Of a stretch of DNA of 64,000 nt, positions 1 to 31,634 are shown one piece after another. The stretch is taken from the IMG/VR virus record IMGVR_UViG_3300028392_000054, positions 1 to 64,000 of that record. One strand, 5' to 3'. Source of the stretch: a virus. The notes below the pieces were generated by a model. It was not told where the DNA came from and did no database searches. It worked only from the letters and a program-made list of their open reading frames with translations. The position numbers and the translations under genes were made by a program. Position 1 is the first letter of the stretch, and each line of letters begins with the position of its first letter.

Positions 1-861
1 AACAACTGGAACGTCAGATTAGAGGATTTGACTATGCCAGAGGGTTACCGCAACACCTCAGAGAACCAACTCGTAGTTCGTGACAACCCTTTTGATTCTG
101 GGGTAGATGTTCTCTCGGTTGTGGGTTCTCGTTACAAGGTAGTTCAGAACGAGGAACTATTCGCTTTTGGTGACGGTATCCTTGACGGTGGCGCAACTTG
201 GGAATCAGCCGGCTCTATCAAGGGCGGTAAGGTTGTCTTTGGTTCGCTAGTTGTTCCTCGTGAGTTCATCATTGACCCAGAGGGCGCAAACGACAAGACC
301 GTAACTTACTTGCTCGTTCACACCTCGCATGACGGTTCAACAGCAGTTCAGGCTAACATTACACCTGTAAGAGTTGTTTGCCAGAACACGCTAAACATGG
401 CAATCAAGGATTCTAAGCAGAGTTTCAAGATTCGCCACACCGCAACCGTCGGTGGCAGAATTGACGAGGCTCGTCGTGTTCTTGGTCTTACTTTTGACCA
501 CATGGACAACTTTGAAATCATGGCAAAAGCGCTTTACGAAACTGCCATGACAGACCAACAGTTCAACGACATCATCAAAGCCACTTATGCAGAGCCAGAA
601 AATGGCTCGGCTAAGGTTGCGCAAACTCGTTGGAACGATAAGGTTGACCTGCTAAACAATCTGTGGGAAAACTCACCTACCAACGCTACAATCAAGAACA
701 CCGCTTGGGGCGCTCTAAACACCATGACCGAACGCATTGACTACTTTAGAACAGGTAGAAAAGGTGGCGAGGCTATGATTGGAGCCGCCTCTGGATTTGA
801 CCCAGTTGTCAATGCCGAAAAGGCTCGCATACTAGGCGCAATCATGGAGTTCGCCAAGTAA
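1..861 (+). CDS. DUF932 family phage protein, 5'-truncated by the window
   Basis: The frame is open to base 1, and codons before the first possible starts (TTG at 28, ATG at 34) encode NNWNVRLEDL. This fits the Trp-x-Val pattern near the N-terminus of DUF932 (TIGR03299, phage/plasmid-like) proteins, so the gene most likely begins outside the window. Downstream, SVVGSRYKVVQNEELFAFGD is the family's most recognisable stretch. DUF932 proteins are common in large phages and plasmids and have no firmly established biochemical role. The gene is followed at once by a strong hairpin terminator. Family call confident, function unknown. Confidence 0.8.
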   Translation, partial: NNWNVRLEDLTMPEGYRNTSENQLVVRDNPFDSGVDVLSVVGSRYKVVQNEELFAFGDGILDGGATWESAGSIKGGKVVFGSLVVPREFIIDPEGANDKTVTYLLVHTSHDGSTAVQANITPVRVVCQNTLNMAIKDSKQSFKIRHTATVGGRIDEARRVLGLTFDHMDNFEIMAKALYETAMTDQQFNDIIKATYAEPENGSAKVAQTRWNDKVDLLNNLWENSPTNATIKNTAWGALNTMTERIDYFRTGRKGGEAMIGAASGFDPVVNAEKARILGAIMEFAK

Positions 862-874
862 CACCAAATAAGTT

Positions 875-910
875 AGATAAGCCCTCTGCCAATCGGCAGG
901 GGGCTTATCT
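875..910 (+). terminator. Hairpin terminator after the DUF932 gene
   Basis: A 16-bp stem (875-890 with 895-910, one G-T wobble) closes a 4-base AATC loop. The outer AGATAAGCCC / GGGCTTATCT arms are almost the same as those of the terminator at 1796-1843, which suggests a copied module. There is no long T-run, but the stem is strong and lies 14 bases after the stop codon. Confidence 0.7.
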
Positions 911-913
911 GCT

Positions 914-990
914 TTGTTAGGTTGGTAACCTATTGCCTATGCCCGCTTGCGAAAAAGGCATATATAGGCAATAGGTTACCAACCCAACAA
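914..990. repeat. Long inverted repeat 1 (27-bp arms)
   Basis: Arms 914-940 and 964-990 are complementary over 27 bases with one mismatch (919/985). The outer 12 bases are TTGTTAGGTTGG; the inner 15 are unique to this copy. The spacer is 23 bases. Similar elements with the same arm length and the same outer 12 bases lie at 1848-1922 and 3320-3401, each between a terminator and a promoter-like block. Confidence 0.9.
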
Positions 991-1024
991 GCCTATTACC
1001 ACAGTTTCTAATCCGACACGCCGT

Positions 1025-1116
1025 TCGTTACCTAATCGTTATGAGAGATTTATAACAGTATCGTTATGACTAAAATGCCTAAAATCCTATTTAGAGAGAG
1101 AGAAACCTATAAACTG
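1025..1116 (+). promoter_or_regulatory. Iteron-like repeats, (AG)5 tract and TATAAACTG box
   Basis: TCGTTACC at 1025 and TCGTTATG at 1036 are spaced 11 bp, with a further TCGTTATG at 1061. An (AG)5 run at 1093-1102 is followed 5 bases later by TATAAACTG (1108-1116), a good -10-like box. The same order of elements recurs at 1930-2007. No standard -35 is seen; the repeats or the AG tract may replace it, as in activator-dependent phage promoters. Promoter function is inferred from position and recurrence. Confidence 0.6.
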
Positions 1117-1159
1117 TAACTACATGGAAATACACAACCAAACAGAAAGCGAGATTACC

Positions 1160-1723
1160 ATGTTAGAGAACCAAGAGAACAACCAAGAACCAGAACTGAC
1201 CGTTGAGCAGAAGTTAGAGCAGATTGTATGTATGCCTCGTAACTTGCTTGAGGTATCAGATGTAACAGTAAAGCCAATCCTAGACATTTTAGGGCTGGAA
1301 GTAAGAGGTGTCGGTTTCTATTCAGAACCAACAGCCGAGCAGGTCACAATCCGTCAGGAACTCGTAAAACTAAACAAGTTAGTTGTAAATACTGAAACAA
1401 CAAGCGAACAGCGTTGGAACGATTTGAGGGATTTTCGTAGCAGGGTTGATAAGTTAGAGGAATACCTTGACGAGAACTGGGACAGCATTGACGAGGAAGT
1501 TCGTGACTTTTTGTGCGAAACTTTCAAAATTGACCAAGAAGTCACCAAAACCGTAAATGTCACAATCACAGGTTCATTAGACATAACAGCACCAAGAGGT
1601 TATGACTGGGACAACATTGAGGAGGACATTGAGATTGACGGTTCTGTTCGTATCACCAACTCTGACCTTGACGAAAGCGGTTACGGTTTCAGCGTTGACG
1701 ACACCGAAGTAGAAGTTGATTAG
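1160..1723 (+). CDS. Acidic hypothetical protein (187 aa)
   Basis: Not recognised. Start chosen at ATG 1160 rather than ATG 1124, because 1124 lies only 8 bases after the TATAAACTG box, while 1160 is preceded by ACAGAAAGCGAG, resembling the leader of the gene at 2036. The protein is rich in Asp and Glu. A central helical part (roughly residues 50-125) precedes a C-terminal part starting VNVTITGSLDITAP that looks beta-rich. It stands alone between its own promoter-like block and terminators, as expected for an independently regulated early gene. Confidence 0.7.
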   Translation: MLENQENNQEPELTVEQKLEQIVCMPRNLLEVSDVTVKPILDILGLEVRGVGFYSEPTAEQVTIRQELVKLNKLVVNTETTSEQRWNDLRDFRSRVDKLEEYLDENWDSIDEEVRDFLCETFKIDQEVTKTVNVTITGSLDITAPRGYDWDNIEEDIEIDGSVRITNSDLDESGYGFSVDDTEVEVD

Positions 1724-1736
1724 AACTAAATAAACT

Positions 1737-1770
1737 TGTTAGGGGCTAGTTTCTAGGCTAGCCCCTAACA
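1737..1770 (+). terminator. Perfect 13-bp hairpin
   Basis: TGTTAGGGGCTAG (1737-1749) pairs perfectly with 1758-1770 around an 8-base loop, 14 bases after the stop codon of the preceding gene. It is the first of two terminator-like hairpins in this 312-base gap. Confidence 0.7.
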
Positions 1771-1795
1771 TACCAAGCCAGATTGGTTCTCTGGC

Positions 1796-1843
1796 GATAA
1801 GCCCACCAGTTATTTTCTTCCAAAGGTCGCTGGTGGGCTTATC
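1796..1843 (+). terminator. Second hairpin of the GATAAGCCC type
   Basis: GATAAGCCCACCAG (1796-1809) pairs perfectly with 1830-1843. The GATAAGCCC/GGGCTTATC arms match the terminator at 875-910, while the inner stem differs. Confidence 0.65.
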
Positions 1844-1847
1844 TATT

Positions 1848-1922
1848 TTGTTAGGTTGGTTGCTTTGTTGCCTACCTGCGTTATTAGCAGATAGATAGGC
1901 AACAAAGCAACCAACCTAACAA
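1848..1922. repeat. Long inverted repeat 2 (27-bp perfect arms)
   Basis: Arms 1848-1874 and 1896-1922 are perfectly complementary over 27 bases. The outer TTGTTAGGTTGG is identical to that of repeats 1 and 3; the inner 15 bases differ completely from the other copies yet keep full pairing. The 21-base spacer itself holds a CTGC/GCAG mini-stem (1876-1879 with 1887-1890). Confidence 0.92.
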
Positions 1923-1929
1923 GTTTGTG

Positions 1930-2007
1930 CTGTTACATAATCGTGACCTAATCGTTACCTGTTCGTTACCATGTATCTTGCGTAAGAGAGAGAGTAGGTA
2001 TAAACTG
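1930..2007 (+). promoter_or_regulatory. Three to four 11-bp-phased repeats, (AG)5 and TATAAACTG
   Basis: TCGTGACC at 1941, TCGTTACC at 1952 and TCGTTACC at 1963 are exactly 11 bp apart, and a degenerate copy (CTGTTACA, 1930) keeps the phase. (AG)5 lies at 1985-1994 and TATAAACTG at 1999-2007, four bases apart. The leader ends with AGAAAGGATTGAGAG just before ATG 2036, a plausible ribosome binding site. Confidence 0.65.
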
Positions 2008-2035
2008 AATACACAATCACAGAAAGGATTGAGAG

Positions 2036-2305
2036 ATGAAAGTCAAAGACCTAATCGCCGAATTACTAAAGCGTAATTCGTTAGAAGATGAAGTAGTAGT
2101 AGCCTATTACGATAGTGGTTATTGTATAGACGAAATACAGATGACAGCCCCAGCCAGAGAGATTATGGAACAGGCTTGGAAAGAGATTGCTGATGAGGCA
2201 CAAGAGATAGTTGAGGGTCACCTTGAGTTCACACAGACAGGTTACGAGATTAGTGACATGTTTGAGGAAAAGATAACAGAACTATTACAGAAAGAGGAAA
2301 ACTAA
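2036..2305 (+). CDS. Acidic hypothetical protein (89 aa)
   Basis: Not recognised. It begins MKVKDLIAELLKRN, a pattern seen in many small phage proteins, followed by two predicted helices rich in Glu. It is the first gene of a chain of six that overlap by TAATG or similar junctions (2305, 2430, 2608, 2697, 3050), so it is probably translated from one transcript starting at the box near 2000. Confidence 0.75.
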   Translation: MKVKDLIAELLKRNSLEDEVVVAYYDSGYCIDEIQMTAPAREIMEQAWKEIADEAQEIVEGHLEFTQTGYEISDMFEEKITELLQKEEN

Positions 2306-2430
2306 TGTACGAAAATGTATTAGGAGAACAATTTGAGTTCTATTGCGAGGTATGTGGTAACTATGCCCATGAGGTATGTGACTGCTGTACCGAGTGTTTA
2401 GAAGTTGCTGACCTATGTGAGTGTAACTAA
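2305..2430 (+). CDS. Cys-rich mini-protein (41 aa), probable zinc binder
   Basis: ATG 2305 overlaps the stop of the previous gene (TAATG), and its own stop overlaps the next ATG at 2430. The 41 residues contain seven cysteines in CEVC, CDCC, C and CEC arrangements, suggesting a small metal-binding fold. Supported by exact translational coupling on both sides and by cysteine spacing. Function unknown. Confidence 0.65.
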   Translation: MYENVLGEQFEFYCEVCGNYAHEVCDCCTECLEVADLCECN

Positions 2431-2615
2431 TGCCTAAATACAGCGTGCCGATTACCTTTTGGGGAACTATTGAGGCTGAGAGTGCCGAACAAGCATGGCA
2501 GATAGTATCTGACGGACTATCTATAAAATGTGGTGTATTTGAGAATACTATGGTAGCAATAGGTATGACCGATACTGAACACCTACACGACGAGGTAGAG
2601 GAACTAGATGAATAA
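2430..2615 (+). CDS. Small acidic hypothetical protein (61 aa)
   Basis: Starts at the TAATG overlap with the preceding gene. MPKYSVPITFWGTIEAESAE and the following AWQIVSDGL resemble small phage proteins with a beta-beta-alpha fold that convert an input sequence pattern of the type 'A-x-s-x-e-e-A'; no named family is claimed. The C-terminus is strongly acidic (DEVEELDE). Confidence 0.65.
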   Translation: MPKYSVPITFWGTIEAESAEQAWQIVSDGLSIKCGVFENTMVAIGMTDTEHLHDEVEELDE

Positions 2616-2697
2616 CTATCTAATAACCCTGCTAAGCCGAATTATTATCCAACTATCCGTATTACACGCCAAACTTATTATGAAAGGTAAAAAATAA
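2608..2697 (+). CDS. Possible 29-aa hydrophobic peptide
   Basis: ATG 2608 lies inside the end of the previous gene, and the stop overlaps the next ATG at 2697. The peptide (MNNYLITLLSRIIIQLSVLH then AKLIMKGKK) is one hydrophobic helix with a basic tail. It may be a real membrane mini-protein or only a translated bridge that keeps ribosomes moving to the next gene. Conservation would decide. Confidence 0.4.
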   Translation: MNNYLITLLSRIIIQLSVLHAKLIMKGKK

Positions 2698-3050
2698 TGG
2701 CTCTATTAGAAATGCCTGTCATTGACAGAGAAACAATGTCGTCTGACCAAATCCACGCTATCTACCAGCAATACTGGCATGATAGACAACTACAAAGCGG
2801 AAATAACCTATTGTTTATGAAAGACAGAATAAAGCAGTTAGGTTATACATCTATGGCTGACTTCCGTAGGCAGAACCCTCGCCTTGTAGTTACTGCTGGA
2901 ACTATAACTAACTACTTTAGAGGCTATAGCACAATGTCGCCCCACACCGTAGTAGAGTTATCCTATGCTTTACGCATGACCCCAAATACATTTCTGTCCA
3001 TAATGGGTTACTACGACCCTAAGAAACAGACGATAGTAGAGGTAATCTAA
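2697..3050 (+). CDS. HTH (XRE-like) DNA-binding protein
   Basis: A 117-aa protein with a helix-turn-helix-like core at about residues 40-105 (LGYTSMADFRRQNP, then TAGTITNYFRGYSTMSPHTV and PNTFLSIMGYYDP). The same layout, including the closing PNT-L hydrophobic helix, occurs in the 79-aa product at 8080-8319, so the two are probably distant paralogues. Such proteins usually regulate transcription in phages. GAAAGG upstream plus the TAATG junction support the start. Confidence 0.6.
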   Translation: MALLEMPVIDRETMSSDQIHAIYQQYWHDRQLQSGNNLLFMKDRIKQLGYTSMADFRRQNPRLVVTAGTITNYFRGYSTMSPHTVVELSYALRMTPNTFLSIMGYYDPKKQTIVEVI

Positions 3051-3208
3051 TGAGTTCTCATGGAACCGATTGCTTATGCGTATTCTGTGGGACATTGTGC
3101 GAAATCTGCCTTCAGCCGTATCCTAGTGCTTGTTCCTGTCCCAATGAGGAAGATTGTAAGGTATGTAATGACCCTGATAGCGTAGAGGACTGTATCTACC
3201 ACCCATAA
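3050..3208 (+). CDS. Cys-rich mini-protein (52 aa), probable zinc binder
   Basis: Starts at a TAATG overlap with the HTH gene. It contains nine cysteines, mostly in C-x-C-x2-C, C-x2-C and C-x-C patterns (CLCVFC, CEIC, CSC, CKVC), and ends DPDSVEDCIYHP. It resembles the 41-aa product at 2305 in style but not in detail. It is the last gene of this operon; three hairpins follow. Confidence 0.65.
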   Translation: MSSHGTDCLCVFCGTLCEICLQPYPSACSCPNEEDCKVCNDPDSVEDCIYHP

Positions 3209-3212
3209 ATGT

Positions 3213-3305
3213 CGTGTAACGCTCATTACACGCTGGAATAGGCTTTTTCCACCTTTCTGTGCCTATTCCACCAACCCCCAGCCACATCTCTCTTGGCTGG
3301 GGGTT
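3213..3305 (+). terminator. Cluster of three hairpins ending the operon
   Basis: CGTGTAA (3213-3219) pairs with 3226-3232; GGAATAGG (3235-3242) pairs with 3262-3269; AACCCCCAGCC (3273-3283) pairs with 3295-3305 and is followed by T-rich sequence. The third is the best intrinsic terminator candidate. Confidence 0.6.
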
Positions 3306-3319
3306 TTGGCTTATCAAGA

Positions 3320-3401
3320 TTGTTAGGTTGGAAGCCTTTAGCCTTAGCCGAGCCGAAGGGTGAAACGGGCTAAATAAGGCTAAAGGCTTCCAACCTAACA
3401 A
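3320..3401. repeat. Long inverted repeat 3 (27-bp perfect arms)
   Basis: Arms 3320-3346 and 3375-3401 are perfectly complementary over 27 bases, with the same outer TTGTTAGGTTGG as repeats 1 and 2 and a third, unrelated inner arm. The spacer is 28 bases. Confidence 0.92.
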
Positions 3402-3403
3402 GA

Positions 3404-3475
3404 TTGTTATGAAATCGTTACCATTTCGTTACCAAAGCCTATTGACTAATAGAGAGAGAGGTGCTATGTATGCGA
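3404..3475 (+). promoter_or_regulatory. 11-bp-phased TCGTTACC repeats and (AG)5 tract
   Basis: TTGTTATG at 3404, TCGTTACC at 3415 and TCGTTACC at 3426 are in exact 11-bp phase. (AG)5 lies at 3451-3460, followed by GTGCTATGTATG, in which TATGTA is a possible -10. The arrangement copies the blocks at 1025 and 1930, except that the TATAAACTG box is replaced. Confidence 0.55.
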
Positions 3476-3898
3476 TTATAACGATTTGGTAACAACCAGC
3501 ATAGAGAGAGAGAAATAGTGTAGGCTACGCCCACCGTTTCGGCTACTGCCTAATAAGCCTATCAAGCGTGCAGGGATACGCCCAGATTGTAGGTTGTTTT
3601 ACTGGTTTTGTGTATCTGATGTATGTGTGAGAGAGAGAGAGAGGGCAGAGGCACGCAGTTACGCTACATCTAACTTATTACTCTCTATGTATTGTTCTCT
3701 CTCTTAGAGGTAGAAACAAAGAAATAAGCAAAGCCCCGATTTTCTTGTCGGGGGGTGGGTTCGCAGGTGACCAAAATCAAATGTTACAATAAGGTAACAA
3801 ATACGGAAATGCTGTATCCGATTGTCACCACTAGGGCTTAGACTACTTATACGAGGTCAGAGAGGCTGACCTCACTAAATCAGAAAGTATCAAATCTT
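3476..3898 (+). promoter_or_regulatory. Gene-free leader with extra AG tracts and hairpins
   Basis: No credible gene. It holds a partial inverted iteron (about 3477-3492, containing GTAAC and CGTTAT-like bases on the minus strand), (AG)5 at 3503-3512, a longer GA run at about 3629-3644, a CTCTCTCT run near 3694, a small CCCCGA/TCGGGG hairpin (3734-3753), and a GAGGTCAG/CTGACCTC hairpin (3853-3873) with a 5-base loop 25 bases before ATG 3899. The last could regulate translation of the AAA+ gene, whose own ribosome binding site is weak. Confidence 0.45.
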
Positions 3899-5284
3899 AT
3901 GAGTATCGCCCTTTTAGTATCAACTGAAATGAAAGACGGTAAAGAACAGACCCTACTTGTTCCTACCGATAATGAAGTCCTAATGTTCCACCGTCTATCT
4001 ACTGGTGGTCGTGGTCGTGGTCAGGCATGGAACAAGGTCACAGATGTAACAACCTTGCCACAGACCCCAGCAACTAATAAGCCTGTCGCAGTTGCTATCA
4101 ACAGCACAGATGTATTTAACGCCAAGTTCGGAAATGTAACAGCCCTATCTAGTCGCCTTACTACCCTTGACGGTGAGTATCACTATGACGAGAGCAAGCG
4201 TATCTCACATCAGGCTTGGGTTACTGATTTGACCGAAAGGCTTATTGCTGGCGAGAGCAACTTGGCTCTCTATGTTCAGGACAAGCGTAGGCAATCCCCA
4301 GTAGTTATCAAGCCTATTACAGCAACAGAACCAGAGCCAGAATTGGAAATGGCTTTCGTGGCTATCAACAGCACAATCAACGAGCCTTTTAGTAATGTCG
4401 TGGCTATGCCACGCCCACAAGTCCAGACCGAAATGGCAACCGTTCCAGATAAGTCATGGGCTAACCGTTACCTCAACCGTAAAAATGTTAATAAGTCTGG
4501 TAAGACCGATTACGAAATGCTAGACATCATCAAGGCTAACAATCAGAACCTACTAATCAGAGGTCACGCTGGGTCAGGTAAGACCATGTGTGTTATCGCT
4601 TGGGCAGGTTCTAGGGAATACCGTTACTACAACATCTCTAGCAACATTGGGCTAGAGCCGAGCCACCTATTCGGTATGTGGATTCCGACAGAACAGGCTG
4701 GCGTATTTAAGTGGCAAGACGGTCCTGTAACAGACTTGGTAAGACATGGTGGCGTGCTGTTGCTCAATGAAATTGACTTCATGCCAGAACGCATTACAAC
4801 AGTTTTATTTGGCTTGCTAGATGATAGACGAGAAATCCAGTTGCTAGAAAATGGTGGCGAGGTAATCAAGGCTCACCCTGACCTAGTTGTAATCGGTGAC
4901 CACAACCCGAACTATCGTGGCTCTCGCCCTATGAACCAAGCGTGGAAAGACCGTTTTGCTCACAAGTGGGATTTTGAGTATGACAAGGCTATTGAGAAAA
5001 AACTTATTGGTAACACAACCCTATTAGAAGTGGCTAATCAGTTGCGAGAACAGCATGAACGAGGCGAGATTGACACGCCTATCTCTACCAGAGGTCTTGA
5101 GGCTTTCGTCAAGAACACTCACAATGTCAATCTTGATTACGCTGTTATTACTTATCTAAATAGTTTTGCTGATGATGAACGAGAGGCTGTCAAATTGGTA
5201 TTTGATACTGCTAAGGCTGGTATCGCTACTGGGTTTGGTATCGCTGTTGATGTAGAACTACAACTAGACGAGGTGGCTAACTAA
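3899..5284 (+). CDS. MoxR-type AAA+ ATPase
   Basis: A 461-aa protein with an AAA+ core in its C-terminal half. Walker A is GHAGSGKT (222-229), Walker B is LLLNEID (about 285-292), and GDHNPNYRGSRPMNQAWKDRF (shown here in part) holds the sensor and arginine region typical of MoxR/CobS/NorQ ATPases. The N-terminal ~200 residues are unlike the family and may bind a partner. It overlaps by one base (TAATG) the VWA gene at 5284. In MoxR systems the ATPase works with a VWA protein to remodel or insert metal into a target, so the two products probably form one chaperone complex. The target is unknown. Confidence 0.85.
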   Translation: MSIALLVSTEMKDGKEQTLLVPTDNEVLMFHRLSTGGRGRGQAWNKVTDVTTLPQTPATNKPVAVAINSTDVFNAKFGNVTALSSRLTTLDGEYHYDESKRISHQAWVTDLTERLIAGESNLALYVQDKRRQSPVVIKPITATEPEPELEMAFVAINSTINEPFSNVVAMPRPQVQTEMATVPDKSWANRYLNRKNVNKSGKTDYEMLDIIKANNQNLLIRGHAGSGKTMCVIAWAGSREYRYYNISSNIGLEPSHLFGMWIPTEQAGVFKWQDGPVTDLVRHGGVLLLNEIDFMPERITTVLFGLLDDRREIQLLENGGEVIKAHPDLVVIGDHNPNYRGSRPMNQAWKDRFAHKWDFEYDKAIEKKLIGNTTLLEVANQLREQHERGEIDTPISTRGLEAFVKNTHNVNLDYAVITYLNSFADDEREAVKLVFDTAKAGIATGFGIAVDVELQLDEVAN

Positions 5285-7377
5285 TGGCTAAGCCTAAAGT
5301 AAGTAGAGTTAGCGTTGATTCCACCCCTATCGGTAAGACATGGTGGGAGTGGCTTGCCGAGCAAGGCGAATCAGATTCCAGCATTTACAATAGCAAGGTA
5401 GATGTAGCCAAAGAAGTAAAAGCAACTGGTAAGACAGAGGCAGAAGTTATCATGCGTAGAAATACCTTGAGGGCAGAATTAGAAAACGAGTATGACTTTT
5501 ACATTGACAACGAAAGGTCTAAGATTGGTAGCGTGTTCCAAATGCGTAACAACACACTTGATAGCGTTGTTTCAGTTTATCAGCGTGCCGACAGGATTCT
5601 TACTGGTCTTAATGTTCTGGTATCCATAAGTGAAAATGAGGTAGCCCCTGCTTACAATGACGGTAAAGACATTGTATTTAGTGGAAAACTAATTAAAGAC
5701 CTTGACGAAAATACAGTATTGTCTTTACAAGGTCTTAATTACCATGAACTTGGTCACCTGCTATTCACGCCAAGAATCGGCACAGCGTTAGGCAAGTGGG
5801 TCATTGAGAAAGGTCTAAAGACTAAACAGACTAGTTATGACTACATGGATAGTGACGGTAAGGTTCAGACACACACTCGGTCATACTCAACAGAGGAACT
5901 GGTAGAACCTGCTCGCAACATGGCGTTTAACATCTTAGAGGATTGCCGAGCCGAGTATTACCTAACGCTTAAGTATCCTAGTATCAGACCTTTCATGGTA
6001 ACCCTATTAGGTGATTACATACTTGATAATAAGTTAGATAAGTTAGGCGAACAGTTTATCCTGCTCGCTGGTCGCAAGTATTTCTCGCTTGAGTTACGCA
6101 AGATGTCTGCCCAGATGTTCATAGCCGAGCATGGCTTAGACAAGGCTAAGGCTCTCTACGACATTTTGACCGAGTATCGCACTCTCGTATTCCCTCGCCA
6201 GTATGACAGGGCTAAAGAACTGATTACAGAGTTCATAGCCCTACTACCTAAAGACGACAATGGCAATCCAAAGCCAGTAGGTCAGAACCCTAATGGCTGT
6301 ATCCATAGAGAACCTATGCGAAATGGCAGACCTACTACCGAGAAAGAACAAGAGGCTCTCGCTGGCAACGCTGGCACAGGTAAAGACCCTCTCGGTGATG
6401 AACTCGGCAAAGGGCTTACTGCTGGCAAAGGTAAGTTTGAGGAAACTGGTGAGATTAATTCCGAAACTGCTGGTTTTAATACCAAAGACGAGGAAGTAAT
6501 TAGGGAATTACAAGAGGTCGTTCAGCGTGCTAAGGCTGATAAGTCTTTACAGAAAAAGGTTAGTGACACGCTTAAGGCTATTCAGAAAGACCGTAGTAGC
6601 AAATCTATCCTAGAGAAAACTAGGGCTGGCAATTACACGCCAGAGATGTCAGAGGTTACTGCTAGTCGCTTGTTCGCACAAGAACTAGAACTGCTAAGAA
6701 TAGAAAGTGACCCTGCTTGGAACAGAGAAAAGCCAAGTGGCAAGTTAAATGTCAAGCGTGCCATGAACGCAGACATTAACAGGATAGATACGCTATTTGA
6801 CCGTTGGCAAGAGGGTAATGATGATTACGACATTGAGGCTAGTATCCTGATTGACAGGTCTGGCTCTATGTATTCCGAGATTGGTTCTGCTTGTCGGTCT
6901 GCTTGGGTAATCAAGCGTGCCATAGAACGAATCAACGGTAAAGTATCTGTATCTGTATTCAGCGATTACGGTAGGGAACTGTTTGACAGAGATACCCTTG
7001 CGAGTGCCACAGATGTTCGTATCGTAGAGGCTGGTGGCGGAACTGACCCTAGCCAATCCCTAGCCGAAACAGCAAGAATAATGGATAATACAACTGCTAA
7101 AACTAAATTAGTATTTATTCTTACTGACGGTGAGTGGTATAAACCTGCTGTTGCTGATAGCAAGATTGAGCAACTAATTAAACAAGGCTGTTATGTAAGC
7201 GTAGTCTGGCTTGGTAGCCATGAATACGCCAAGACTATTATGGCTAACCCTAAGCAAGTTATCCAATACACACATGGGGCTAACTCGTTCAGGACTATCC
7301 AGCAACCTAGCGAACTAGTTAAGGTCGCTAAAGATGTGGTTAAAGCACAGATGAACCGTAGCAAAGTCAGGGGTTAG
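5284..7377 (+). CDS. VWA-domain protein with HExxH metallopeptidase-like region
   Basis: A 697-aa partner of the AAA+ ATPase. The C-terminal VWA domain carries the MIDAS residues DRSGS (D524, S526, S528), a GGGTDPS segment and LTDGEW. About 370 residues earlier lies HELGH (154-158) within a helix, the zinc signature of metallopeptidases, followed by an ILEDCRAEYYL segment that could supply a third ligand. The arrangement recalls cobaltochelatase CobT-like and DUF2201-type proteins. A charged low-complexity linker separates the halves (about 340-400). Whether the peptidase region is active cannot be judged from sequence alone. Confidence 0.8.
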   Translation: MAKPKVSRVSVDSTPIGKTWWEWLAEQGESDSSIYNSKVDVAKEVKATGKTEAEVIMRRNTLRAELENEYDFYIDNERSKIGSVFQMRNNTLDSVVSVYQRADRILTGLNVLVSISENEVAPAYNDGKDIVFSGKLIKDLDENTVLSLQGLNYHELGHLLFTPRIGTALGKWVIEKGLKTKQTSYDYMDSDGKVQTHTRSYSTEELVEPARNMAFNILEDCRAEYYLTLKYPSIRPFMVTLLGDYILDNKLDKLGEQFILLAGRKYFSLELRKMSAQMFIAEHGLDKAKALYDILTEYRTLVFPRQYDRAKELITEFIALLPKDDNGNPKPVGQNPNGCIHREPMRNGRPTTEKEQEALAGNAGTGKDPLGDELGKGLTAGKGKFEETGEINSETAGFNTKDEEVIRELQEVVQRAKADKSLQKKVSDTLKAIQKDRSSKSILEKTRAGNYTPEMSEVTASRLFAQELELLRIESDPAWNREKPSGKLNVKRAMNADINRIDTLFDRWQEGNDDYDIEASILIDRSGSMYSEIGSACRSAWVIKRAIERINGKVSVSVFSDYGRELFDRDTLASATDVRIVEAGGGTDPSQSLAETARIMDNTTAKTKLVFILTDGEWYKPAVADSKIEQLIKQGCYVSVVWLGSHEYAKTIMANPKQVIQYTHGANSFRTIQQPSELVKVAKDVVKAQMNRSKVRG

Positions 7378-7896: not shown

Positions 7897-8087
7897 TTAC
7901 AATGAATAAAACAGCGTGGGTCGCTAGTGACGGTTCTTATGGGGCTGGCACAATAATCTTGTTTGACCCTAATGAACTCACAGATTTAGAGTGGGAGATT
8001 GTCGCAGAGGAAACGAGTGACATGGACAGGCTAGATGTAATAAAGCAAATACTAAATAATAAGAAAATAGGAGAAACAAATGATTAA
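7893..8087 (+). CDS. Small acidic hypothetical protein (64 aa)
   Basis: Starts at an ATGATTACAATG cluster overlapping the previous stop; either ATG (7893 or 7902) is possible. It contains NELTDLEWEIVAEETSD, a helix also seen in other small phage proteins, and ends within the HTH gene that follows (8-base overlap). Not recognised. Confidence 0.55.
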   Translation: MITMNKTAWVASDGSYGAGTIILFDPNELTDLEWEIVAEETSDMDRLDVIKQILNNKKIGETND

Positions 8088-8319
8088 AACTAATAAGCAA
8101 GTAGAAACATCTTGGGCTTGGTTCGTAGCACGCTACAAGAAACTCGGCTACAAATCTCTCAACCAGTTCGCAATCGCAACAGGCTTTCAGAAGTCTAGCC
8201 TATCCAGATACTTTCACCTTGAGAGGCAGATACCTAGTGGCATGATGTCGGCTTTATGTAGCACGCTAAAGGTCAGCCCTAATACCCTGATGAAAGTCAT
8301 TGGCGAGGAGTGGAACTAA
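8080..8319 (+). CDS. HTH DNA-binding protein (79 aa)
   Basis: A compact XRE-like helix-turn-helix: YKKLGYKSLNQFAIATGFQ, then SSLSRYFHLERQIPSG, then a closing helix with SPNTLMKVIG. It shares layout and the PNTL-hydrophobic ending with the product at 2697-3050. GGAGAAACAA precedes the ATG. A regulator of phage transcription is the natural guess. Confidence 0.65.
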   Translation: MIKTNKQVETSWAWFVARYKKLGYKSLNQFAIATGFQKSSLSRYFHLERQIPSGMMSALCSTLKVSPNTLMKVIGEEWN

Positions 8320-9051: not shown

Positions 9052-9525
9052 ATGACAATACCCGAATTACAATTACTAATAAGCCTGATACCACTAGCCT
9101 ATGTCGGTGGTGCTATGATACCGATTTTTCACTCGGACTACACTCGTAATAAAGTTTCTAATAAGATAGTTGTGCCTTTAATGGTTCTGACCTTGTTGTG
9201 TTGGCTGACCTTAGCAATCTGGCAGGGCGAGTGGCTAAAGTTCGGTATCTCTATCCTATTCTTTATAGGAACTATCCTGTTTGGTTTCTTCATAAACATT
9301 AAGTATGACCTATTAGGTATGGGTGACATAAAACTATTAGCAATCTTGTCTATGATACTGTCGTGGTTTTCATGGGGAGTAGCCCTTGTATTCTTACCAG
9401 TAACAGCAGTTTTATCACTTGTAGTAGGGTTCTTTGTAGTAATGCTCTCTAACGCAAAAGACATGAGGTTATCACCAGTAGTCTTTATAGCCTTCGGATT
9501 CCTAATGGCAGTAGCCATGAATTAA
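9052..9525 (+). CDS. Prepilin peptidase-like GxGD aspartyl protease (A24 family)
   Basis: A 157-aa polytopic membrane protein with about five hydrophobic segments. The two catalytic aspartates of family A24 are visible: D29 in HSDYTRNKVSNKIVVPL, matching the D-x-R-x-x-x-I-x-N motif, and D92 in LLGMGDIKLL, the GxGD motif. Length matches the short TadV/FppA-type enzymes rather than the longer PilD with its N-methylation domain. These cleave the leader of type IV prepilins at the membrane. AAGGAAAACAA precedes the ATG, and it closes the left-arm operon before a terminator. Phage-encoded examples are unusual. Confidence 0.75.
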   Translation: MTIPELQLLISLIPLAYVGGAMIPIFHSDYTRNKVSNKIVVPLMVLTLLCWLTLAIWQGEWLKFGISILFFIGTILFGFFINIKYDLLGMGDIKLLAILSMILSWFSWGVALVFLPVTAVLSLVVGFFVVMLSNAKDMRLSPVVFIAFGFLMAVAMN

Positions 9526-9714: not shown

Positions 9715-11748
9715 TTACTGGTTGTCTTTAATTAGTTTTATTTCACAAGCGTCAGTAGTACAATAAGCCTCACCGATAGCCTCAATACCTAAGCCCTGAT
9801 ACACGCCAGCAAAGTCAATAGGGAATAGTTCCATAGCATACTGGTCGTATTCCGCTTGAGAGATTTGAGAGTAAGGCATTTGAGGATAGACATGGTTACC
9901 CATTGGCAAGAAAGAGATCGTTTTTAACTGACCGTCGTACATGTGGAGAACTGTACCTACATCTTTAATTTCTTTTTCAGCGTCAAAAGAGATAGTCACA
10001 GACACAGAGTTATCTGACCACCAGCGTTGAGCAGTCGCAGCGAGAGCAACCTTTTCGTAGATAGATACATCTTTTTCAGAACGCTTAGCAAGAGATTTAA
10101 TAGGGAAGAACACCACAGAAGTCTTAGTAGTGTTTTCACTAGCAGGTTCTACTCGGTAATTAGCCATTTTAAAGAGAGAGAGCATAGGGTCATCATTACC
10201 AAAGCGGATGGCACGCAAGAAGTATTCGCCGCCTGGGGTCCAATGTACGCCTGGACTTTCACCAGAGAGAATAGATACAGTACCAGAAGGCTTTATTGTA
10301 GTTGTTTTAATGCTTTCTCGTATTCCAAGCCACTCAGAATAGCTTTTATCGTAATTAACGATAGTCTTGTAGCCTTCATCCATCCACTCACGAAGCACTG
10401 GAAGCCCGTTGATGTCAGCGAAGTTAGCCACACCAGACATAGAAGTTCCAATGCGTCTGTTCCTTTGCATGATAGCGTTAGTTTCTTCCCAGTGAGTAGG
10501 CAAGAGTGTAACAGTCTTAGCATAGAGATAAGCAAACTTGAGAGTACGCTTGTAGTCCTCAAGAGATTCATGTCTATTTAGATAAGTTTCTACCAGAGTA
10601 CAGCACTCAAACGATTCGAGAGATTGCTCGGCACATGGGTTATAGCCCGCAGCACGCCAATCTTTATTGTTAGGTTGGTCGGCTAATCTACCATACTTAC
10701 GAGTTACATCCATCCAAATAACTCCAGGCTCACCATTGAGAGCGATACCATCTACAATTGCAGAGAGGTCTGTACCCACAGCGGTTTCTACAGAGTTATT
10801 AGACATCCAAGCCCAGCCTGGATTTTCTGGGTCATAAGAGTTACGTTCTGGGAAACGCTCAGCATTTTTGAGATTTAAGAAGTTATCGTCATCTATACGC
10901 CCAAGCAACAGCTCAGCAGAACGGCGAACGTTACCTGAAACTACGCAAACACCAATCATATTACCTATATCCGCAATATCAATTCGGGTTATCTTATTTC
11001 CAGCCCTACCAGCAAAGAGTTTTCTAATGTGCGTGTGCAATTTTAGAAGCGGTTCGTGTCCCGCAGCAGTTCCGCCGAAGGTAGCAATAGGTGCGCCAAA
11101 TGGTCTAATGCTGTCGTAATTAAATACCCAAGTAGGCTGGTCTGGCTTTAAATAAGCATTTATTAAAGCAACAGTACTATCTACCCAACCCTCTCGCGTG
11201 TCAGGGATATCGAACACTTGTTCGCCTTTTGGCTCATAGATGTCAAAGCCTTTATCAGCACCTTTGTCATCAAAGCCCACACCCACACCCAGCATCGAGG
11301 CTTCCATCAGGAACGCAAACGGCTTAGCAGGGTTGTTTTTAGACATTTCATTAGTAGAAACAAATGCGCAATTCTGCAAAGCAGCACTATTCTTTTGCTC
11401 ATTTACCAAAGGCGTACCCATTACCCAAAGACCTCGGCCAGGCGGAGTCCACTTGAGATTAAACAGGCGGTCAAACGCTTCTTTAGCGGAAGCCTGTGCC
11501 TTAGCGTCGTTCCAAGGCAAACGGTTAGTCTTAGCGTGGTCTTTCTGAAGCGAGTACATACCGTTGATGACACGCTCACATACATCAGTCCAAGTTTCTT
11601 TAGTACCGTCAGCCTTTAGGCGAGAGTAAGTACGAAGAAAGGTAATCTCTCCAACAGAGTTACCAGCAACATCTTTAAACCCCCAAGGTACTACTTTGTT
11701 CTTGTAGCCTTCTACGAAGTCGTTTGTTAATTTAAATGATAATGACAT
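9715..11748 (-). CDS. nrdJ: Adenosylcobalamin-dependent ribonucleoside-triphosphate reductase (class II)
   Basis: Reduces ribonucleotides to deoxyribonucleotides for phage DNA synthesis, independent of oxygen, using B12. The start at 11748 (677 aa) is preceded by AGGAAATGCT; an upstream ATG at 11799 has no such site. Visible features: C127 in LQNCAFVS, the thiyl/redox segment NPCAEQSLESFECC (about residues 365-385), and a C-terminal CTTDAC with Cys at about 663 and 668. That C-x4-C spacing equals the swinging-arm pair of the monomeric Lactobacillus-type enzyme. GTSMSGVANFADI and KPSGTVSILSG are further family segments. Use of B12 implies the host makes or imports it. Confidence 0.93.
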   Translation of the reverse strand: MSLSFKLTNDFVEGYKNKVVPWGFKDVAGNSVGEITFLRTYSRLKADGTKETWTDVCERVINGMYSLQKDHAKTNRLPWNDAKAQASAKEAFDRLFNLKWTPPGRGLWVMGTPLVNEQKNSAALQNCAFVSTNEMSKNNPAKPFAFLMEASMLGVGVGFDDKGADKGFDIYEPKGEQVFDIPDTREGWVDSTVALINAYLKPDQPTWVFNYDSIRPFGAPIATFGGTAAGHEPLLKLHTHIRKLFAGRAGNKITRIDIADIGNMIGVCVVSGNVRRSAELLLGRIDDDNFLNLKNAERFPERNSYDPENPGWAWMSNNSVETAVGTDLSAIVDGIALNGEPGVIWMDVTRKYGRLADQPNNKDWRAAGYNPCAEQSLESFECCTLVETYLNRHESLEDYKRTLKFAYLYAKTVTLLPTHWEETNAIMQRNRRIGTSMSGVANFADINGLPVLREWMDEGYKTIVNYDKSYSEWLGIRESIKTTTIKPSGTVSILSGESPGVHWTPGGEYFLRAIRFGNDDPMLSLFKMANYRVEPASENTTKTSVVFFPIKSLAKRSEKDVSIYEKVALAATAQRWWSDNSVSVTISFDAEKEIKDVGTVLHMYDGQLKTISFLPMGNHVYPQMPYSQISQAEYDQYAMELFPIDFAGVYQGLGIEAIGEAYCTTDACEIKLIKDNQ

Positions 11749-11896: not shown

Positions 11897-13342
11897 CTAT
11901 ATGTCAGTCGTGTTTATCTTCTTAATTATCTCGTTTGTCTGGTCTTCATTGTATCCGTTATTAGGTAGTTCAGTCAATTTTTGAGCCCTATCGCCGAATA
12001 AACTGGACAAAACTCCAGCCGAATTTCCACGCTCAACAGAGATTCTCATAGTCTCTTTTGACTCGTCTAATTCTTTAATAGTCTTAAGCATTTTAAAGAA
12101 TCTATCCATCTCTAGACCTGTATTTGGGTCAGGATATCCGCCGTTTAAATCCTCTGCAAACTTGGCAAATGCCACTCGTTGCCCTTGTATTTCAAGGAGT
12201 GAGTTAATTAGACCCTTAAGTTGTTCCTTGGTTTTTACCTCAACTGGTAGGTTAAACGCACAAGGGTTATCCACCTTAAAAGCAGGACAGTTATCCTTGA
12301 CAAAACAAGAATTACACTGGCGTAGGCTAGTGCTATTTGAACGAAGAACAGGTACATCTTTAATTACATCACGACCAGTTTCATCCGTCTCAATGACACG
12401 TGAAACTTCTACTCCAAGAACAGGTAAAGTACGCATTTCGAGTGGATTTCGCTGTAAAAGTTTGACTGATTCAGATGCTGATATATCAGTATTAGAGGGG
12501 GTAGTTTGACTATTTTGAGGGGGTAACATTTCACCACTTATATCTGATATATGTTTAGTGCTATCAGCCCATATTTCTAGCTGTTGATACGACCATACGG
12601 CGAGCCTAGAGACCTCAACAGCGTCATCTGCAAGTATCTTATCGAAGTTTAAGTTAGCCTCTTCATAAGCGGCTTTATAGCGTGAGCGAGCCTGGTCTTT
12701 CATACGTTTAGGGTAACGGTGTAGTTGATTACCAAACCATACGATAGTTTCGCCCCTCATCATAGGAGATAACCAAGCAAGCGTGCTAGTAGTCTCAAAC
12801 GGCGAGTTACGGAACTTATCAGGCTTGATAGACCCTAAAATGTGAAACTTAGTACCATGCTGGGAAGAAAACTTGCGGCACATCGGCTCAAGTGCTTCTG
12901 CTACATTTCCAGCAATAAAAACATTTAAATATCTAGTGGCAAGGCTTTCTAAACTACCTTCGGTATAAACAACACCAAACTTAGTATCATCTACCTCATT
13001 CCACACAGACGCCCGCTGCTGGGTAATAAACTCTTGAGACAGATTTGGGTGGCTTATTTCACTAAAAAGGGTAATTCTATTCAGGTTATCTGAAATAAAC
13101 TCCTCATAGTCGGCACAAAAGTCCTCTAATTCCTCATCCGTTAAGCTGGCTGTAGCCGGTATGCCTGGATACACATATACTTCTACCTCATCTTTAAAAT
13201 AGTTCTCTAATAAATATTTTTTAGTCTTTGGTAAACCACGCTTTACAAGGCCCCAATAACTAACGCCAACCTTTTGAGCGTTTGAGTGGTCTAAGATAGT
13301 GCGGTTGCTAGGTACTTCTGCACCTAAATAAATTATCTTCAT
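11897..13342 (-). CDS. Large protein, possibly TGT/DpdA-like TIM barrel with Cys cluster
   Basis: A 481-aa protein not firmly identified. The N-terminal two thirds look like a TIM barrel: strands such as MKIIYLGAEVPSN, VEVYVYPGIPA and a late segment KFHILGSIKPDKFRNSPFE followed by TTSTLAWLSPMMRGE. The last resembles the region of tRNA-guanine transglycosylases and phage DpdA proteins that precedes the catalytic 'DST-W' motif, although the Asp is not conserved here. Later, QCNSCFVKDNCPAF is a cysteine cluster (C-x2-C-x5-C) able to bind metal. ATGA overlap with the preceding gene (13339). Alternative: an unrelated barrel enzyme of actinophages. Confidence 0.4.
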   Translation of the reverse strand: MKIIYLGAEVPSNRTILDHSNAQKVGVSYWGLVKRGLPKTKKYLLENYFKDEVEVYVYPGIPATASLTDEELEDFCADYEEFISDNLNRITLFSEISHPNLSQEFITQQRASVWNEVDDTKFGVVYTEGSLESLATRYLNVFIAGNVAEALEPMCRKFSSQHGTKFHILGSIKPDKFRNSPFETTSTLAWLSPMMRGETIVWFGNQLHRYPKRMKDQARSRYKAAYEEANLNFDKILADDAVEVSRLAVWSYQQLEIWADSTKHISDISGEMLPPQNSQTTPSNTDISASESVKLLQRNPLEMRTLPVLGVEVSRVIETDETGRDVIKDVPVLRSNSTSLRQCNSCFVKDNCPAFKVDNPCAFNLPVEVKTKEQLKGLINSLLEIQGQRVAFAKFAEDLNGGYPDPNTGLEMDRFFKMLKTIKELDESKETMRISVERGNSAGVLSSLFGDRAQKLTELPNNGYNEDQTNEIIKKINTTDI

Positions 13343-18610: not shown

Positions 18611-19627
18611 TTAAGCTAAATTAGTTCTAAACTCTTGTCCCATAAATACTGCCCAGTCATCTAGGATTGGAACTGATAGTAGGGTAAATTCGCCTGTGTC
18701 TTTATACCACGCAAAACCTACTCCCTGTTGCCAGTTTTCCCAGTATTTAACTGGTTTCTCATTAGGGGTAATTCCACCCTTGACGCTAGGTACCGAACCA
18801 TCTACACGACATAGACATCCAGGGCTAAACGCAGCATTACGAGCTGGCCCATTACTGGTGTGGTTAGTGTGGTACATCATTTCAATTCGGTGGATGTGCC
18901 CATAAATTACGGAAACATGGTGATTTGAATTAATATACTTCATAGCCGTACTACCGGCCGAATTAACCCGGTCGCCGTGGATACAGCGTAGGTTCTCATT
19001 CAACCAGTATTCGCCCGCTGGGTATCCGCTGGCGTACTTGATGTTTAGTTCATCCATACGTAACAAATGTGGAAGGCTGTTTACTGGCCAATCACTTGGA
19101 GTAGTTCCTGCCTGACGCATATTTGATACGGCTGGTGCGTTCTCTGCCAAATACTTATATATACGGCAATCGTGGTTACCTTCTAGGAATACAATTTCTG
19201 CATCCGGAACTGTAGCGCGCTGGGCAGCCAGATACTCATAGCCACGCTGGATGGCTAGATTAGTCGAGTTCTGGAACGCAATCTCCTGATGGTGACGGCT
19301 CTGTGCTGGTAGGTCTAGGGTATCCCCTAGGTTTACCACAGTATCCACGCCAAACTGTTGATGTGCATAGTTTATAATCTGTAGGGCAATGTCAATTGCT
19401 TTCTCGGAATGAAATTCAATTACTGTCCCATCCTCATAGACACGGTAACCGATTTGGGTATCCGGCAGCAGCGCAGCCAATTTCCAATCGTTCTTTCCCT
19501 TTTTAGGTTTAGTAATAGTTGACGGTTTAATCGTCATTTTTTGAGCCTGTATGATTGGAAATTCTTTTAGCGGGTCTTCTCTCAGAAGTTTCGCTAATTC
19601 TTTGGCTAAGCTGTCGGACAAGTGCAT
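18611..19627 (-). CDS. Calcineurin-like metallophosphoesterase
   Basis: A 338-aa protein with the family's metal motifs in order: LLPDTQIG (D-x-x/H-like first motif), VVNLGDTLD (GD-x-x-D), VFLEGNHDCR (GNHD), IHGDRV and VIYGHIHRIE (GH-x-H). These hold a two-metal site for phosphodiester or phosphomonoester hydrolysis. The substrate is unknown; phage members are often nucleases or phosphatases acting on nucleic acids or nucleotides. The motifs look intact. GCGAGGAGT precedes the ATG. It overlaps by 22 bases the small gene upstream, so both come from the promoter near 19900. Confidence 0.85.
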   Translation of the reverse strand: MHLSDSLAKELAKLLREDPLKEFPIIQAQKMTIKPSTITKPKKGKNDWKLAALLPDTQIGYRVYEDGTVIEFHSEKAIDIALQIINYAHQQFGVDTVVNLGDTLDLPAQSRHHQEIAFQNSTNLAIQRGYEYLAAQRATVPDAEIVFLEGNHDCRIYKYLAENAPAVSNMRQAGTTPSDWPVNSLPHLLRMDELNIKYASGYPAGEYWLNENLRCIHGDRVNSAGSTAMKYINSNHHVSVIYGHIHRIEMMYHTNHTSNGPARNAAFSPGCLCRVDGSVPSVKGGITPNEKPVKYWENWQQGVGFAWYKDTGEFTLLSVPILDDWAVFMGQEFRTNLA

Positions 19628-21429: not shown

Positions 21430-21675
21430 TTAATCCTTTAGTTCTCGTATGAATTGTACAATTATATGTGCATCACAGCTATTTCCGCAAGATGCTGATT
21501 TGTGTGGAGCACCGTCTTCTATAAGCTGTGCTACTCTAGCTCGTTCATCAAACTTACTAGTTTTTAACTCTTTATTTTGTCGCTTTATTATTAACCAGTA
21601 TGAGGCCAAGATATACGCAAATATACGGGCAGCAAACCCTGTTCGTTTTTTTGCGTCCTCAAACCCCATAAACAT
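21430..21675 (-). CDS. Hypothetical protein (81 aa)
   Basis: Starts at the TAATG overlap with the RuvC-like gene. A hydrophobic helix (AARIFAYILASYWLI) is followed by a basic region and ASCGNSCDAHIIVQF. Possible membrane-attached protein; not recognised. Confidence 0.5.
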   Translation of the reverse strand: MFMGFEDAKKRTGFAARIFAYILASYWLIIKRQNKELKTSKFDERARVAQLIEDGAPHKSASCGNSCDAHIIVQFIRELKD

Positions 21676-22265
21676 TAAGGTTTTTCCCTAAAATTAGGGC
21701 CTTTAATCTTTTCAAGAATTTCTAATTCATAGGCTAGGTTACCTTTACCGGCAGCTAGCATAGCTAGGGCATATGAGTCCGCGGCGTTATCGTCGTTAAA
21801 CTCTACGCCCCACTTTTTATATACCGCTAAAAGTACCTGATTTTTTTGTACGCCTGTGCCTTTACCTGTGATGTATTTCTTTAAAGTAGTTGGCGGAATA
21901 ATGTATGGGTACTTACCCTCAAATTCATCCAGTTCATTGTAGCAAACCAGTTTTACTATGGCACCTAATTCGCCCAGCATATGGGCCATTGTGGTGCCAA
22001 AGGCATAGCCTTCCATGGCTACAATAATTGACGAAGGCTTATTATAGAAAGTATAGTAGTCCAATATTTCTGTAAGTTTTTCTTGAATCCAAACCAAACG
22101 GTCAATGTGTAGCCCTTCTGCTTTAAACACATTAGTTTTATAATCCGCTACGTCTTCTGCGTCAAGTACGGTTATCCCAAACCCGGAATAAGATTGGTCT
22201 ATACCAATTGCAATACTATTTACATCTCGCCCTAGTCCTGGCCCAAATACCTTATCTTTTGCCAT
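21675..22265 (-). CDS. RuvC-like Holliday junction resolvase
   Basis: A 196-aa RNase H-fold nuclease. IGIDQSYSGFG gives the first catalytic Asp (D23) with the S-x-x-G pattern, VAMEGYAFG the Glu, a Lys/Pro-rich segment follows (IIPPTTLKKYITGKG), and DDNAADSYALAML gives the final Asp pair. Typical of RuvC/phage resolvases that cut branched DNA before packaging. It overlaps neighbours in a recombination operon with a Cas4-like nuclease and RecA. Confidence 0.85.
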   Translation of the reverse strand: MAKDKVFGPGLGRDVNSIAIGIDQSYSGFGITVLDAEDVADYKTNVFKAEGLHIDRLVWIQEKLTEILDYYTFYNKPSSIIVAMEGYAFGTTMAHMLGELGAIVKLVCYNELDEFEGKYPYIIPPTTLKKYITGKGTGVQKNQVLLAVYKKWGVEFNDDNAADSYALAMLAAGKGNLAYELEILEKIKGPNFREKP

Positions 22266-31082: not shown

Positions 31083-31634
31083 TTACTTGATATCAATGAC
31101 TTTTGGCTTCTTTTCATCAGGGATATTCTTAAACAACTTGACTGACAAAAGCCCGTTTTCTACCTTGGCTGATTCTACTTCGTAAAATTCAGCAAGGGCA
31201 AAAGTGAGCTTAAAATCGCGTCCAGCGATACCGTTGTGAACGAGTTCGCCTTCTTGTTCTTTGTCTTTCTTTTTACCTTCAATTTTCAACGCCTGTTCTT
31301 CTACTGTGATTGATAGTTCTTTCTTATCGAAACCAGCAACAGCTACATTGATGACTGTGGTATCGTCTTTGTGGTCAATAATGTCATAAGGCGGATAACT
31401 TGCCTTAGCATTTGACAACTCTTTAAGCTGCTCTAGCAGCGGGGACCAGCCAATAGACCAGCGGTCTAGGCTTGGAAATAGGTCATTGATGGTAATAACC
31501 TTTGGGGCAGGCGGTTTCTGCCATTTCTTATAAATATCCGCAGGGTCATGCGGATTTGGAATTGCTTTACCATATGGGTCATATGGATTGTTGTGTTTAT
31601 CCCACGGGTCTGGGAATTGATCACGTATTTTCAT
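31083..31634 (-). CDS. Hsp20/alpha-crystallin small heat-shock protein
   Basis: A 183-aa protein. VINVAVAGFDKKELSITVEE, then ALKIEGKKKDKE and GIAGRDFKLTFAL with VENGLLSVKL at the end, is the alpha-crystallin domain. The ~80-residue N-terminal extension contains Pro-rich repeats (PWDKHNNPYDPYGKAIPNPH). GGAGACAAC precedes the ATG. Acts as an ATP-independent chaperone, perhaps for head or tail assembly, as in other large phages. Driven by the promoter at 31721-31754. Confidence 0.9.
   Translation of the reverse strand: MKIRDQFPDPWDKHNNPYDPYGKAIPNPHDPADIYKKWQKPPAPKVITINDLFPSLDRWSIGWSPLLEQLKELSNAKASYPPYDIIDHKDDTTVINVAVAGFDKKELSITVEEQALKIEGKKKDKEQEGELVHNGIAGRDFKLTFALAEFYEVESAKVENGLLSVKLFKNIPDEKKPKVIDIK

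Follow-up and report, generated by a model that had tools for sequence, protein, structure and literature searches.

Inverted repeats with phage-specific 12-base ends between small phage genes: possible folded-DNA sites cut at one bond

Inverted repeats at the locus and in relatives

We analyzed a window of 64,000 bases (bases 1–64,000 of the 81,729-base virus record IMGVR_UViG_3300028392_000054, the remainder of which carries our label L012), in which three inverted repeats lie among small genes upstream of an AAA_5 ATPase gene (Table 1). A sequence-only reading of this DNA had described them as hairpins with equal 27-base arms, spacers of 23, 21 and 28 bases, identical outer 12 bases and completely different inner arms. 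The coordinates, arm lengths and spacers proved exact, and the repeats are real, far beyond chance; as described, two are perfect and one has a single mismatch, which sits in the outer block. The identity of the outer 12-mer held for five of the six arms, the sixth (979–990, minus strand) reading TTGTTGGGTTGG, and the inner arms do differ, but they have in common a GCC-N4/5-GCC pattern. Folded as single-stranded DNA, repeats 1, 2 and 3 gave −27.3, −32.8 and −32.2 kcal/mol, with z-scores of −9.8, −13.0 and −9.5 and no shuffle as good (200 shuffles each), and the window contains 10 copies of the 12-mer TTGTTNNGTTGG where 0.25 would be expected, a count reached in 0 of 100 shuffles.

A search of the record and of related phages for more copies, which had been proposed together with that description, found no further inverted repeat of the same kind in the whole 81,729-base record, the part beyond the window included, and arrays of up to nine in relatives. 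These relatives were gathered from IMG/VR by pattern scans and by searches with the flanking genes; some two dozen contigs have between one and nine repeats each, all in one genome region upstream of the AAA ATPase gene. After a double detection (L185:3768) was removed from 79 entries, our catalogue held 78 distinct repeats in 23 region sequences from 21 records, 43 of type 1 and 35 of type 2. Type 1 is that of the window, with an outer block of TTGTTNNGTTGG when read inwards to the hairpin, and in type 2 the 12-mer is flipped; GCC-rich inner arms are common to both. The polarity type is not due to reading direction, because a palindrome is the same on both strands. Type 2 lies upstream of type 1 in all eight arrays that hold both, and the point of the switch varies among phages, so that between gene families F0 and F6 two phages (G001 and L021) have a type 2 repeat and four others a type 1.

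Throughout most arrays the 12-mer has one reading, and between phages an NN pair in it differs; in L042 and L082 it differs in its first bases, and the arrays of L032, L023 and L187 are mixed, with two or more forms. A site whose reader changes along with it would be expected to show this pattern, and the idea that the outer 12 bases are a binding site for a phage protein gains from it, as the 12-mer behaves as a phage-specific recognition sequence. We found the same hairpin design in none of the distant relatives L045–L081 and L083 (14 of these loci were rechecked with looser limits), in none of 75 further loci, which gave a single unrelated repeat, and not in Streptomyces phage BRock. In Streptomyces BE-type phages that carry the neighbouring gene we saw another kind of inverted repeat, which starts with AAAATTCACCCCT, continues into a variable inner part and occurs once per locus (e.g., L084 533–596 and L091 948–1012). 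The type 1 pattern gave no clue to the bacterial host: it had 10 matches in a bacterial genome collection, about the number estimated by chance (7), of which seven lacked inner-arm pairing and three, with 12–14 of 15 inner pairs, resembled other hairpins. No published description of these repeats was found in a literature search covering part of the literature, and a search on the 12-mers gave unrelated titles among the matches listed.

Table 1. Features of the 64,000-base window discussed in the text
Feature	Position	Strand	Remarks
Inverted repeat 1, type 1	914–990	unstranded	Arms 27, loop 23; single mismatch at arm position 6
Inverted repeat 2, type 1	1848–1922	unstranded	Arms 27, loop 21; perfect
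Inverted repeat 3, type 1	3320–3401	unstranded	Arms 27, loop 28; perfect; aligned with orthologues of nine relatives
Gene before repeat 1	28–861	+	phrog_1221, function not assigned
Terminator-like hairpin directly before repeat 1	874–911	+	
Gene cassette between repeats 1 and 2	1124–1723	+	Family F0, function not assigned
Terminator-like inverted repeat directly before repeat 2	1796–1843	+	14-base arms
Direct repeats of the ATCGTTACC kind after repeat 2	1935–1971	+	About 11-base spacing; also 1024–1044 and 3398–3434
Gene cassette between repeats 2 and 3	2036–3050	+	Small genes F6, 61 residues, F4; function not assigned
Terminator-like stem before repeat 3	3275–3307	+	Stem 3275–3303, then TTTT; read from sequence, partly recovered by scan
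AAA_5 ATPase gene after repeat 3	3899–5284	+	Arrays of relatives end here
Isolated 12-mer in coding gene	9193–9204	+	L022 ends at the homologous 12-mer
Isolated 12-mer in ribonucleotide reductase gene	10667–10678	+	
RuvC-like Holliday junction resolvase gene	21675–22265	−	Possible actor; also in hairpin-less relatives
Isolated 12-mer	39222–39233	−	
Isolated 12-mer in tail sheath gene	57640–57651	+	

Pairing of the arms and the position of one bond

While the inner arms vary freely across the catalogue (mean identity 0.50 and 0.39), their pairing is kept: 62 of the 78 repeats are perfect, the other 16 have one mismatch each, all 16 mismatches are in the outer 12-mer, and the 1182 inner pairs include no mismatch and no G-T pair. 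Repeat 3 precedes the ATPase gene; in an alignment of ten orthologous sequences of it, two-sided change affects 10 of 26 pairs, giving 25 both-sided cells compared with 6.0 in shuffles, 0 one-sided and 1 unpaired. The claim that pairing has been maintained while the sequence changed is thus confirmed well beyond the three repeats for which it was made, and a lack of further copies or decay of the pairing in relatives, named at the time as outcomes that would count against it, is the opposite of what we found, the copies being many and their pairing kept. Because the inner arms have no G-T pairs while the neighbouring terminator stems have 48 in 751 pairs (6.4%), comparison of the sequences points to pairing at the level of DNA, not of RNA; this yardstick, from the upstream stretches of 77 repeats, 56 of which fold into a stem of at least 8 pairs, is not quite even, the program behind those stems permitting G-T, but in the inner-arm search a G-T pair would have shown as a mismatch, as it did in the 12-mers.

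The spacing from 12-mer to 12-mer ranges from 38 to 72 bases, which suits a folded form more than it does a duplex held by a rigid dimer. We rejected a DNA inversion switch, the orientation of the loop being constant at each locus with a single exception. The only clear flip found is between the orthologous repeats L031 4572–4653 and L033 4559–4640, whose loops are inverted relative to each other. Another unusual repeat, of type 2, was seen at L035 389–528, where perfect arms of 64 bases take in operator-like GTTATCAAA repeats on both sides.

Many contigs end inside the arrays. We listed 68 ends from 36 records, one of them hairpin-less (G011); two ends of L039 and L040, not at the bond in question, and the ends of some near-identical contigs fall outside this list. 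Eleven of the 68 ends lie exactly at TTGTTNNG^TTGG, against 0.11 expected from the rate of such positions inside arrays, a count that is not an independent replicate, the bond having first been noticed on part of the same contigs; the L022 end and the mismatch boundary described below are independent. Seven of the 11 ends are in type 1 repeats (hairpin lost), three in type 2 repeats (hairpin kept) and one, that of L022, at an isolated 12-mer; all 11 retain the same 8-base side of the 12-mer, and a further end (G022) is at the same bond on the other side. The L022 end is inside a coding gene, at a single 12-mer without a hairpin, and the homologous places in L014, L021, the window and L020 read TTGTTATG, TTGTTGTG, TTGTTGTG and TTATTGAG, respectively, each followed by TTGG and none with a hairpin. 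We also considered an end of G005 as a cut at a variant 12-mer and left it out of the count, as the homologue has no 12-mer there.

From the bond to the outer end of the repeat there are 8 bases in type 1 and 4 in type 2, and because of this difference hairpin geometry alone fails to explain the bond. Arm mismatches observe the same boundary: 15 of 16 lie outside the bond, at positions 6 and 7 in type 1 and positions 1 and 3 in type 2, the lone mismatch inside being at position 9 of a type 1 repeat. Within the 12-mers this amounts to 15 of 484 outside versus 1 of 452 inside (P = 5e-4), the same letters behaving oppositely in the two types. Furthermore, 12-mers without an opposite partner nearby, some of them within arrays or at contig ends, number 5, 3, 9 and 7 in the hairpin-bearing G000–G003; permuting the letters gives about 0.4 per record, and no isolated 12-mer occurs in the hairpin-less G011 and BRock. 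The contig ends and the pairing boundary, as independent signs, suggest cutting or exchange of the DNA at a single fixed bond within the 12 bases.

Gene cassettes, surroundings and other genes

Small overlapping frames aside, the genes in the arrays are co-oriented, and the families F2, F5, F7, F8, F9 and F12 recur between repeats in varied order and company. Of 241 homology endpoints, 36% are within 25 bases of a repeat, against 10% at random. Precisely excised forms, in which one 8-mer would be joined to another, were not found for the family's 12-mers in the sequences searched, CCAATTGG occurring only scattered. The sequence-only reading had placed all three repeats between a terminator and a promoter-like block; the terminators are supported for all three, but a sigma-70 consensus scan gave 8 sites versus 6.8 expected, and in place of the promoter block there are direct repeats of the ATCGTTACC kind, a possible operator. 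Runs of GAGAGAGAG occupy 3460–3650, between repeat 3 and the ATPase gene, and occur in relatives too.

The gene before repeat 1 is presumably DUF932-like. The AAA_5 (MoxR-type) ATPase gene is followed by that of a VWA-domain protein (together 3899–7377, plus strand), and this pair closes every array and is absent from G011 and BRock. It belongs to a set of genes that G000, G001 and G002 share and that G011 and BRock lack, and the genes for a 79-residue regulator-like protein and a metallophosphoesterase are also in this set; on this distribution the array-associated genes form a candidate list in which no single culprit is indicated. The 79-residue protein (8080–8319, plus), 83–85% identical in G001 and G002, weakly matches transcriptional regulators of phages and is a candidate reader of the operator-like repeats. 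The metallophosphoesterase-like protein (18611–19627, minus), with 96% identity in G001 and G002 and 89% in G003, is far more conserved than most of its neighbours. Elsewhere the window encodes a prepilin-peptidase-like protein (9052–9525, plus), a queuine tRNA-ribosyltransferase-like protein (11897–13342, minus) and an Hsp20-like protein (31083–31634, minus). The phage has a tail sheath gene, and, judged by sheath and DNA polymerase, the isolated phages closest to it are those of Streptomyces, BRock among them (~37–40% identity).

Known systems, rival explanations and meaning

Integron attC sites are cut between G and TT. Excerpts from an account of integrons describe them as folded DNA hairpins of 57–141 bp with a variable interior, situated between small co-oriented genes, in which the outer bases beyond the cleavage need not pair and a cleavage triplet is conserved (PMC5371416). 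The phage repeats are likewise variable-interior folded hairpins between small genes of one orientation, with their mismatches outside the bond; as for exchange of the attC type at G^TT, contig ends and the pairing boundary are at G^TTGG and cassette orders differ, and no junction reads were seen. Unlike attC, they have perfect stems without extrahelical bases (none unpaired among the inner pairs), two polarities, a conserved 12-mer instead of three bases and a terminator for every unit, and a tyrosine recombinase of the IntI type is found in 0 of 7 phage records. Phage nick motifs are given, in the parts available of two papers, for T5, phiKF77 and tf (TACT/RTGMC) and for Rembedalsseter (WACTRTGAC) (PMC3517423, PMC11780129), and the excerpted text of the latter regards the function of site-specific phage DNA interruptions as still open after 50 years (PMC11780129). 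As far as these excerpts go, our 12-mer is like such motifs in being asymmetric, in having one bond, in being common to related phages, in its enrichment in the genome (within the phage group and not outside it, as the counts of isolated copies show) and in occurring in coding genes also; unlike them, it mostly forms inverted pairs that end perfect hairpins in one region, and contig ends are what points to breaks at it. On the features tested, the repeats belong to neither class; by analogy they would work like attC in position, folding and pairing boundary and like the nick motifs in fixed bond and genome-wide enrichment.

The PeSL of Arbiol 2010 and Comeau 2014 are reportedly, to go by a cited title, promoter-terminator motifs. 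Excerpts on the T4-type phages describe them as repeated promoter and stem-loop blocks between plastic early genes, proposed to mediate shuffling (PMC4503421). Our repeats too are stem-loop blocks repeated between plastic early genes, but, going by that description, they differ in a hairpin that is perfect, has phage-specific ends and is separate from the terminator, and in the host group; for an early promoter in the same block, the promoter scan was no better than shuffles. The ESAS of cluster K mycobacteriophages, as excerpted, are imperfect 17-bp inverted repeats with a variable spacer, mostly of 4–13, that stand before non-structural genes, are tied to the translation start and have a subcluster-specific consensus (PMC3203893). 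The phage repeats share with them the variable spacer and a consensus that differs between groups, but have a freely varying paired interior, which ESAS as excerpted lack, and do not adjoin a 13-bp sequence at the translation start, repeats 1 and 2 ending 134 and 114 bases before the next start codons.

We propose, at a probability of roughly 45%, that DNA is cut at TTGTTNNG^TTGG in these hairpin sites and that the sites serve in cassette exchange. Sites folded as hairpins or cruciforms would bound small early-gene cassettes, and a sequence-specific enzyme would read the phage's own 12-mer and cut the strand that carries it at 5'-TTGTTNNG^TTGG-3'. Two such cuts on opposite strands would free the intervening stretch as a hairpin, whose overhang would be 5' in type 1 and 3' in type 2; once rejoined or repaired at the cut bond, cassettes could be exchanged. 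Arrays, DNA-level pairing, a phage-specific 12-mer, varied cassette orders and the coincidence of contig ends and pairing limit at one bond are what we observe; from these we infer that real molecules, seen here through their assemblies, would be cut, and likewise the strand polarity, the enzyme and exchange as the purpose.

Several observations weigh against this proposal. About nine more ends fall within a repeat or at its edge and off the bond. This group includes the two ends of G002, a contig that closes to a circle through 14 bases shared at a repeat; from such ends it follows that hairpins may halt assemblies without any cut. L019 starts at the bond, yet G001, 100% identical, runs through it, so that one assembly of a phage passes intact the repeats at which another ends. 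Some mismatches are at orthologous sites, making the independent events fewer than 16, and the excess of homology endpoints near repeats may be owed in part to intergenic regions in general. An enzyme is also wanting: tyrosine recombinase PF00589 is found in 0 of 7 records and in 14 of 14 control genomes (one may come from the host), Y1 transposase PF01797, as for systems of the IS200/IS605 or REP type, in 0 of 7 records, and serine recombinase PF00239 not in the window's record. The RuvC-like resolvase was considered as the cutter and rejected, as it is in 24 of 28 records, hairpin-less phages included, and the four without it are shorter ones of 18–64 kilobases.

The main alternative, though rather unlikely, is that the repeats are uncut regulatory DNA sites, in which a phage protein binds the 12-mers, the extruded hairpin insulates early transcription units and the contig ends are an effect of assembly or sequencing. 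The position of the repeats after terminators and before direct repeats agrees with this, as do the phage specificity of the 12-mer and the contig ends elsewhere in repeats; it is at odds with ends that cluster on one bond, 8 bases from the repeat end in type 1 and 4 in type 2, with the end at an isolated 12-mer that has no hairpin, with mismatches that switch sides with polarity, and with the range of 12-mer spacing. Breakage during library preparation at opposite site-specific virion nicks of the T5, phiKF77 and tf kind, with no role in cassettes, would draw on the nicks at a fixed bond of a motif enriched several-fold in known phage genomes, as reported in the excerpts (PMC3517423, PMC11780129), and on the enrichment and constant retained side of the ends seen here. 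However, those excerpts report no perfect hairpins at the known motifs, which in tf are on one strand, and the perfect inner pairing and two polarities would be left unexplained, so we regard this as quite improbable.

Passive or selfish palindromes, their arms kept perfect by hairpin-templated correction and their numbers raised by copying without any function, would account for arms that are perfect at the DNA level and for the arms of L035, which reach into flanking operator-like repeats; the ordered polarity of all eight mixed-type arrays, the shared place and loop orientation of orthologous loci (with one exception), the near-uniform arm length and the persistence of mismatches outside the bond make this very improbable. 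RNA hairpins acting as processing sites or small RNAs, among them the RNase III sites and small hairpin RNAs once suggested, would suit the very stable folds, but the lack of G-T among the inner pairs, compared with the terminator stems, and the position after terminators leave them barely credible; Rfam gave 16 matches, all below gathering scores and to microRNA precursors of no relation, of the kind that any perfect hairpin would give. Equally far-fetched is the use of the repeats as packaging or terminal-repeat processing sites that make virion ends: contig ends do occur at several sites, the G002 circle closes at a repeat with only its 14 shared bases, and related Streptomyces phages have two places per record for the neighbouring gene, at both ends in the records inspected, but left-going and right-going ends occur at both types and G001 closes elsewhere, with a 114-base overlap.

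Going beyond cutting and exchange at the hairpin sites, an integron-like system of phage cassette exchange on folded DNA, which we hold to be unlikely, would have an unrecognised recombinase or nickase family that co-evolves with the 12-mer and cuts at G^TT, the two polarities being two zones of the early region and the isolated motifs break sites elsewhere in the genome. If true, it would link the long-unexplained nicks in phage genomes to the shuffling of gene cassettes. Few parts of phage genomes are as plastic as the early genes lacking an assigned function, and the mechanism by which these are swapped is mostly obscure; here a whole phage group has apparent dedicated boundary sites, readable from sequence, with one predicted bond. 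Hairpin-paired sites whose pairing stops at that same bond may offer a testable role for phage DNA interruptions.

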